In this document: piece after piece, positions 26,151 through 27,148 of the stretch
Layout: every line of letters begins with the position of its first letter
How positions within the stretch are numbered: position 1 is the first letter of the stretch
Assembly (NCBI GenBank): GCA_015491245.1
Contig: WFWH01000041.1
Span: 1 to 32,084 of the forward strand
Reading direction: 5' to 3'
DNA from: Patescibacteria group bacterium
GTDB taxonomy: Bacteria; Patescibacteriota; Minisyncoccia; Phycocordibacterales; UBA12088
Length of the DNA stretch: 32,084 nt
Translations under genes and position numbers: made by a program
The notes under the pieces: model-generated
What the model saw: only the letters and a program-made list of their open reading frames with translations
Database searches by the model: none
Told to the model about the DNA's origin: nothing

Positions 26151-26224
26151 GCGGGCGTAGCTCAACCGGTTAGAGCACCCGCCTGTCACGCGGGAGGTTG
26201 CGGGTTCGAGTCCCGTCGCTCGCG
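26151..26224 (+). tRNA. tRNA-Asp (GUC)
   Basis: GCGGGCG/CGCTCGC acceptor, anticodon arm CCCGC-CTGTCAC-GCGGG, T-loop TTCGAGT, G73. Confidence 0.95.
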
Positions 26225-26267
26225 CACAAAGCAGCCGCCGTACGCCACGCGTACGGCGGCGTTGCGG
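26207..26267 (+). repeat. 61-bp perfect direct repeat, copy 1 (overlaps 3' part of tRNA-Asp)
   Basis: cgagtcccgtcgctcgcgcacaaagcagccgccgtacgccacgcgtacggcggcgttgcgg, identical to 26392..26452. Confidence 0.97.
26232..26258 (+). terminator. Hairpin gccgccgtacgc-cac-gcgtacggcggc downstream of tRNA-Asp (inside repeat copy 1)
   Basis: Perfect 12-bp stem with 3-nt loop just after the tRNA 3' end; duplicated in repeat copy 2. Confidence 0.6.
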
Positions 26268-26293
26268 GTGCGCAGAGCGCTACGGGACTCGAA

Positions 26294-26347
26294 CGGCGTG
26301 CCCGGTATACAAGAGCCGCCCGCGGCGGCTGCTTGTCGGGCACGCCG
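26294..26347. repeat. Long imperfect hairpin in the repeat spacer (cggcgtgcccg ... cgggcacgccg)
   Basis: Nested arms cggcgtgcccg/cgggcacgccg, acaag/cttgt and agccgcc/ggcggct around loop cgc; one GTAT bulge. Confidence 0.85.
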
Positions 26348-26391
26348 CGTCCAACGCCGCTTAGCGCGCGTGCGCGCTTAGCAGAGTGGGA

Positions 26392-26452
26392 CGAGTCCCG
26401 TCGCTCGCGCACAAAGCAGCCGCCGTACGCCACGCGTACGGCGGCGTTGCGG
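26392..26452 (+). repeat. 61-bp perfect direct repeat, copy 2 (tRNA-Asp 3' fragment plus hairpin)
   Basis: Identical to 26207..26267; not part of a complete tRNA. Confidence 0.97.
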
Positions 26453-26626: not shown

Positions 26627-27148
26627 ATGAACACCAAATTACTTATTGGCGGTATAGTGGTACTCGCCGGAGTTTTGGTCGTGTTCTTGTGGTTGCGCAG
26701 CAGCCAGGAAATGCCTGCCACCGTTGATGCGCCAACTGGCGTTCCTCCTGCGCCCGCAGCGCCTCCTGCGCAACAATCTCCGACGGCCACCCAAGCGCAA
26801 AGCGCCTCCACACCGGTCGCGGATGAAACAGACCCCTCTCCTGCAGCTTCTCCTGCTGCTGAGACGTCTTCCCAAAAGACCTTTAACATCACTGGACGCA
26901 ACTTCGCATTCTCCCTGCAGGAGATTCGCGTGAAAAAGGGTGACACCGTCACCATCAACTTTTCTTCCGTGGAAGGATTCCATGACTTCACCATTGACGA
27001 ATTCAACGCGCGCACTGAACGGGTCCAAGCAGGCCAGTCAAGCTCGGTGACGTTTGTGGCGGACAAAGCAGGTACGTTTGAGTATTACTGCTCCGTGGGA
27101 AGCCACCGCGCGCTGGGCATGGTGGGGCGACTCATTGTGGAAGAGTAG
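26627..27148 (+). CDS. Membrane-anchored cupredoxin (plastocyanin-like)
   Basis: N-term TM, Pro/Ala linker, then KTFNITGRNFAFSLQEIRVKKGDTVTINFSSVEGFHDFTIDEF...AGTFEYYCSVGSHRALGMVGRLIV (His, Cys, His, Met copper-ligand pattern). Confidence 0.9.
   Translation: MNTKLLIGGIVVLAGVLVVFLWLRSSQEMPATVDAPTGVPPAPAAPPAQQSPTATQAQSASTPVADETDPSPAASPAAETSSQKTFNITGRNFAFSLQEIRVKKGDTVTINFSSVEGFHDFTIDEFNARTERVQAGQSSSVTFVADKAGTFEYYCSVGSHRALGMVGRLIVEE

Follow-up and report, generated by a model that had tools for sequence, protein, structure and literature searches.

The window, by which we mean the whole 32,084-nucleotide stretch analysed, lies on contig C41 of an 866 kb genome in 53 contigs that is 97.6% complete (G000). 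At its tRNA-Asp(GTC) gene we detected a perfect direct repeat enclosing a folded insert (Table 1). A sequence-only reading of this locus had reported two identical 61-nt copies that begin in the tRNA-Asp T-loop and cover the acceptor 3' strand and a hairpin with a 12-bp stem. Our repeat search bore this out and placed the onset at C56, directly after T54-T55, from where the repeat spans the 3' strands of the T-stem and acceptor stem, the trailer and the hairpin. The copies are spaced 185 nt from start to start, and a perfect 61-nt repeat within 1.5 kb cannot be attributed to chance. The tRNA-Asp gene is still complete, its 3' end being the tail proximal to the element. The 124-bp spacer (26268-26391), which the earlier reading had measured correctly, consists of features that it had missed: an inverted copy of the tRNA tail (tail') and two further hairpins (X and Y). 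Positions 26279-26294 in tail' are 94% complementary to 26204-26219 in the tRNA-Asp tail, and the spacer folds with a z score of about -10 against shuffles, as RNA and as DNA alike. The flanking tails (tail1 and tail2) agree at 61 of 61 positions, yet tail' is imperfect, and tail' was therefore not freshly copied at this locus; the tails were probably homogenised or duplicated later, for which tandem duplication or gene conversion may be the cause. An integrase had been reported absent from the window, and we likewise found no integrase domain among the 20 larger ORFs scanned. A gene for a cupredoxin-like protein (26627-27148) lies downstream of the element, and the other neighbours in the window are ordinary: a ZIP transporter, a MacB-type exporter, type IV pilus genes and an NAD ligase.

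Table 1. Features of the tRNA-Asp locus in the window, and the split tRNA-Ala locus of a second genome.
Feature	Position	Strand	Basis or remark
tRNA-Asp(GTC), target gene	26151..26225	+	ARAGORN; Rfam tRNA 70.7 bits
Direct repeat copy 1 (tail1: C56 to tRNA 3' end, trailer, terminator-like hairpin)	26207..26267	+	repeat 61, insert 124
Terminator-like hairpin within copy 1 (12-bp stem, 3-nt loop)	26234..26260	+	inverted repeat
Inverted arm (tail'), imperfect reverse complement of the tRNA-Asp tail, T54 through acceptor strand	26268..26294	+	inverted-repeat match; family per-position complementarity
Core hairpin X, with near-invariant GGTATACAAGA...TGCTTGTCGG motif at 26304-26339	26294..26347	+	inverted repeat; family alignment
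Core hairpin Y (CGTCC...CTTAGCGCGCGTGCGCGCTTAG...GGGA), running up to C56 of copy 2	26348..26391	+	family alignment
Covariance-model R1 match, 64.4 bits, E 2.8e-14 (copy is in the seed alignment and matches by construction)	26283..26400	+	
Direct repeat copy 2 (tail2 and second terminator-like hairpin, 26419-26445)	26392..26452	+	repeat search
Split tRNA-Ala(TGC) with Gabija genes	L077 (G062:C1:8000-27999), 10.88-14.9 kb	sense strand	also L127-L139

A search of G000 with the repeat region found, elsewhere in the genome, copies of the middle of the spacer and none of the repeat; they lie behind tRNA-Thr(TGT) and tRNA-Leu(GAG), twice in tandem at the latter, and the tmRNA of this genome also has an element behind it. 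The G000 sites share a core of about 97-100 nt made of two hairpins, and the tail and its inverted copy are specific to the local RNA gene. Along the tRNA strand the unit runs from tail1 through the terminator-like hairpin, tail', hairpin X (GGTATACAAGA...TGCTTGTCGG) and hairpin Y to tail2 where this is preserved. A search of 297 genomes of the order for the pattern GTATACAAGA-N6..30-GCTTGTC matched 35 of them, and a reversed control pattern gave two matches in all. All exact-pattern matches with a taxonomic name belonged to Patescibacteria (Kaiser-, Yonath-, Nomura-, Campbell- and Taylorbacteria, among others); a few record titles give only 'bacterium'. The covariance model R1 matched 218 of 397 genomes and 126 of 179 genera in the order, with up to at least 8 copies in a single genome in this order-level search, and 21 of 380 genomes across the phylum. 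The sequence-only reading had raised the possibility of an assembly artefact, which we reject because the same anatomy recurs across hundreds of independent assemblies.

The fold is conserved by compensation. RNAalifold, run on 35 copies in an alignment that was not fitted to the structure, predicted 31 pairs, 21 of them with compensatory changes. Among 147 distinct copies, whose alignment was fitted to the structure, 96.3% of cells form standard pairs, double changes occur at 30 of the 31 pairs, and 829 cells are doubly changed (188.5 +/- 13.2 in shuffles). Double changes far outnumber single ones in the consensus stems, and the internal loops are near-invariant alongside this strong covariation. 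Rfam 15, searched at gathering and at permissive thresholds, returned tRNA only and showed no intron or ribozyme resemblance; phage and plasmid records held no similar DNA. Four pattern matches in viral contigs (IMG/VR) lacked tail' and hairpin Y and were taken as chance. Our literature search found no description of these elements, the nearest title (PMC13059738) not treating them, and they are apparently a so far undescribed family of gene-free, strongly folded tRNA-tail elements in Paceibacterota.

Elements are inserted in tRNA or tmRNA genes, between T55 and C56. The interrupted gene keeps a complete 3' end (tail1) and its own terminator, followed by tail', the core and then the displaced tail2. 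The start of the copy was 20-130 nt (mostly 55-62) past the 3' end of a tRNA or tmRNA on the same strand in 98 of 150 cases; 31 copies lie at 130-700 nt and are largely second or third units of tandem arrays, nine lie at 0.7-8 kb, and 12 have no tRNA or tmRNA in the available sequence. The targets include all 20 amino-acid tRNA kinds as well as tmRNA. Identity between tail1 and tail2 is bimodal, extending over about 7-11 nt or 19-25 nt, with a few cases of 50-82. Nearly all copies of tail2 retain their T-loop and T-stem portion, which agrees with the pairing of this portion to tail' in the model; the acceptor portion is present in full or missing. Complementarity between tail' and tail1 amounts to about 80-95% and extends from T54 across the acceptor strand and the trailer; in 20 of 79 cases tail' has one added base facing the 3' end of the tRNA. 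At four loci (L192, L229, L241 and L244) tail2 is interrupted by 7-9 extra nt near the boundary of T-stem and acceptor (nt 65/66), which may mark a second break point. In three families, elements behind tRNA-Gln (L053, L059 and L064) have a shortened arm end, with GGACGAGAAAG instead of GGACTCGAAAG, hinting at a tRNA-Gln lineage of elements.

Other cores occur as well. We noted two or more additional types, starting with GAAACGAACGAG... or ending with TACAGAATCTGTAAGATTCGAATCC (L191, L201, L242; L059, L209, L234), in which tail, terminator and tail' are arranged in the same way, and in others the inverted arm has an extra hairpin around a shared AACTGCTT-like motif (L337, that is G000:C51:1200-3600, and L070, L071, L083, L084 and L209). 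Partial copies were also seen after the distal terminator or behind an otherwise empty tRNA-Asp (G007, L036). These core types with a common layout suggest a superfamily.

Comparison of the tRNA-Asp locus in relatives, a check that the earlier reading had proposed, revealed that the two-copy structure is not universal: in the same-family genomes G001, G005 and G008 the site is empty, with a single tail and a single terminator, and in G006 it is occupied by a different element. A comparison of 204 copies found 141 pairs of cores with at least 80% identity at different tRNA kinds and 22 at the same kind, and tail' fits the local tRNA in all core pairs at different tRNAs. Three of these pairs lie within single genomes: L201 at tRNA-Gly and L202 at tRNA-Glu (94%), L281 at tRNA-Gln and L283 at tRNA-Glu (92%), and L252 at tRNA-Tyr and L258 at tRNA-Glu (91%). 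Judged from these comparisons, cores demonstrably move between tRNA genes, with tail1 and tail' matching whichever tRNA hosts them. At L202 the distal, original terminator ends at CTAG, where an ordinary terminator would stop, and the proximal one runs on into the complement of acceptor strand and T-arm; no other observation hints so clearly that tail' arises by extension of the terminator hairpin.

We also detected copies 0.7-3.9 kb past their tRNA with genes in between. At six loci, one of which (L088) has runs of N in the gap, tail2 rebuilds in silico a tRNA lying upstream beyond the intervening DNA. A search for split tRNAs over all distant copies recovered only the tRNA-Ala(TGC) of G062, whose 5' and 3' parts form the ends of a segment of about 3.9 kb with the distal 3' end intact; no other tRNA-Ala was found in this assembly (89% complete). 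Between the two elements of this segment lies a complete Gabija system, GajA (E 1.8e-153) and GajB (E 3.5e-184). Other cargo includes an 819-aa SMC-like ATPase at tRNA-Ser (L096), whose best PADLOC match is LmuB (Lamassu-like), and a 514-aa protein without a Pfam match at tRNA-Glu (L080). Cargo genes are in sense orientation with the element at their 3' end, and no integrase or tyrosine recombinase was found among the scanned cargo ORFs. Clustering of ORFs near elements returned mostly housekeeping genes. One cluster of LAGLIDADG endonucleases was set aside, being located 5' of tRNA-Asp and not generally associated with elements; its genes run into the 5' end of tRNA-Asp at L172:4728-5477, L213:7300-8022 and L226:6212-6877, and elements lie behind that tRNA in all three genomes. 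On the reverse strand of L182, about 100-200 nt upstream of the element, we noted by eye a tRNA missed by ARAGORN with an apparent group I intron in its anticodon region.

Our best explanation, held with middling confidence, is that the window locus belongs to a family of ORF-less mobile elements specialised for tRNA T-loops, which would move at the DNA level by means of an enzyme acting in trans. Tail', core and tail2 (or, in a circle, tail1, terminator, tail' and core) would fold as a three-helix single-strand structure whose arm helix has the sequence of the tRNA T-arm. Strand exchange or synthesis may begin at the T-loop, the terminator hairpin would be extended by copying the tail back to T54 to give tail', and the segment of tail and terminator would be left duplicated after insertion by a trans-acting enzyme that the element does not encode. 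In the consensus stems G-U makes up 2.2% and A-C 1.2% of cells, compared with 5.4% and 0.2% in the tRNA acceptor and T stems of the same loci; DNA-level folding is favoured because constraint at the RNA level should keep A-C much rarer than G-U. These pair statistics are evidence, not proof: G-U still exceeds A-C in the element stems, and the contrast between element and tRNA stems is weaker in the best-scoring third of copies. Plain templated copying leaves the systematic bulge at the tRNA 3' end unexplained.

None of the three enzyme families searched accounts for the presence of elements across genomes. Tyrosine recombinases (PF00589) are nearly universal at about one per genome, without expansion, and the single-contig genome G114, with at least 8 elements, has no PF00589 match at E<=1e-5. 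Y1 transposase (PF01797) was not detected in the element-bearing genomes G000, G001, G012, G021, G030 and G047, nor reverse transcriptase (PF00078) in G000, G001, G012, G021, G024, G028, G029 and G030, which also carry elements. A single Xer-type recombinase is the only near-universal candidate among the families tested, and an enzyme from outside those families is at least as likely. Since the repeat includes the 3' end of the tRNA, we also weighed a retrovirus-like origin primed by tRNA; it was rejected, as tail' matches the genomic trailer and not CCA and reverse transcriptase is often absent. We propose, tentatively and with more doubt than conviction, that a gene-free element, on insertion, writes a new inverted copy of the tRNA tail beside its core by extending the terminator hairpin to T54, and that it forms the mobile end of cassettes of defence genes with their anchor in tRNA genes. 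Ultra-small bacteria would then have a mode of transposition and gene capture that is new.

The sequence-only reading had offered two accounts of the locus. One was the remnant of a collapsed or excised element, that is, the scar of a conventional tRNA-targeting island. A direct repeat of the tRNA 3' end from the T-loop fits such a scar, but 218 of 397 genomes, over half of those in the order, carry the spacer as a conserved element with covariation, and tail' and core are not features of att scars. Family distribution, R1 matches and covariation refute this as a full account, and we see next to no chance that it is right. The other, a tiny hairpin element duplicating the tRNA tail, came close to the data; it fell short in that the tail occurs as a direct and as an inverted copy and in that the family reaches far beyond one locus. 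An integron-like arrangement, in which tail', core and tail2 act as a folded attC-like site, the tRNA T-arm as an attI-like site and a gene plus its element as the cassette, would explain the compensatory stems with little sequence conservation, the tandem arrays and the order of sense-oriented cargo gene followed by a folded site at its 3' end, as in integron cassettes. Most copies have no gene, however, and the PF00589 count, which is about one recombinase in each genome and none at E<=1e-5 in G114, also speaks against this arrangement, which we think quite unlikely.

Two further alternatives place the function of the fold in RNA. The element could be an intron-like, self-splicing or processed RNA in the T-loop, with tail' as a guide pairing with the T-loop and splicing joining tRNA positions 1-55 to tail2. 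Strong covariation with near-invariant internal loops is consistent with this, as is the rebuilding of tRNAs in silico when the 5' part is joined to tail2 across 0.7-3.9 kb of cargo, and in G062 two elements and the Gabija genes separate the parts of the sole tRNA-Ala(TGC) found by about 3.9 kb. But splicing is not needed, because nearly all insertions leave a complete tRNA, and the split case is one of 150 copies, in a genome that is 89% complete and without other tRNA-Ala genes. The acceptor part of tail2 is degenerate in many copies, tail1 and tail' are separated by a terminator, the stems are poor in G-U and relatively rich in A-C pairs, and nothing in Rfam resembles an intron or ribozyme; we consider splicing unlikely, though it keeps some weight. 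The element could also be a regulatory or processing RNA that extends tRNA transcripts by a structured 3' part and so controls their termination or 3' maturation; this would suit the position of the element, always on the tRNA strand and directly downstream, and the systematic unpaired base at the tRNA 3' end. Such a role is improbable: occupancy of a given tRNA is erratic among relatives, cores jump among tRNA kinds, some copies sit kilobases away behind cargo, and the element lies beyond the terminator.

The preferred reading, a mobile element of tRNA T-loops, has wider implications. The elements reside in essential genes and occur in more than half of the genomes sampled from a major order of bacteria that are ultra-small and mostly uncultured. 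If the reading is true, they would offer a genome-wide route by which genes, anti-phage systems among them, reach tRNA loci although no integrase is encoded. To our knowledge, no known bacterial element has an arm of 20 or more nt that matches its target and is made anew at each tRNA. The tRNA-like repeats that the elements make may also mislead annotation and assembly of Paceibacterota genomes.

Several known systems share parts of this design. Like the attC sites of integron cassettes recombined by IntI, the elements are folded, covarying sites at the 3' end of cassettes, occur in arrays and may recombine as single strands, but they are anchored in tRNA T-loops, their arm is the tRNA's own tail and they are mostly geneless; the dedicated tyrosine recombinase that accompanies an integron array was not found here by PF00589 search or among scanned cargo ORFs. 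With tRNA-targeting phages, ICEs and islands they share insertion in the T-loop, restoration of the tRNA 3' end by the element and a displaced tail at the far end, whereas the insert here is about 120 bp without genes, carries an inverted tail copy, uses any tRNA kind and has no integrase in the window or scanned cargo. REP/REPIN-RAYT systems and MITE-like palindromes are likewise short, non-coding, palindromic and mobilised in trans; the elements described here differ in their strict T-loop target and target-matched arm, and Y1 transposase was not detected in G000 and several other element-bearing genomes. Group I introns of tRNA genes are also structured insertions with guide pairing to an exon, but our elements sit in the T-loop and not the anticodon loop, duplicate the tail and have no group I core. 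Rickettsia palindromic elements are multi-copy palindromic repeats inserted in protein genes; they resemble our elements in being multi-copy palindromes of small genomes and differ in target, which here is the tRNA T-loop. We file the family as a new kind of tRNA-anchored, non-autonomous element that would work in part like integron cassettes and in part like tRNA islands.
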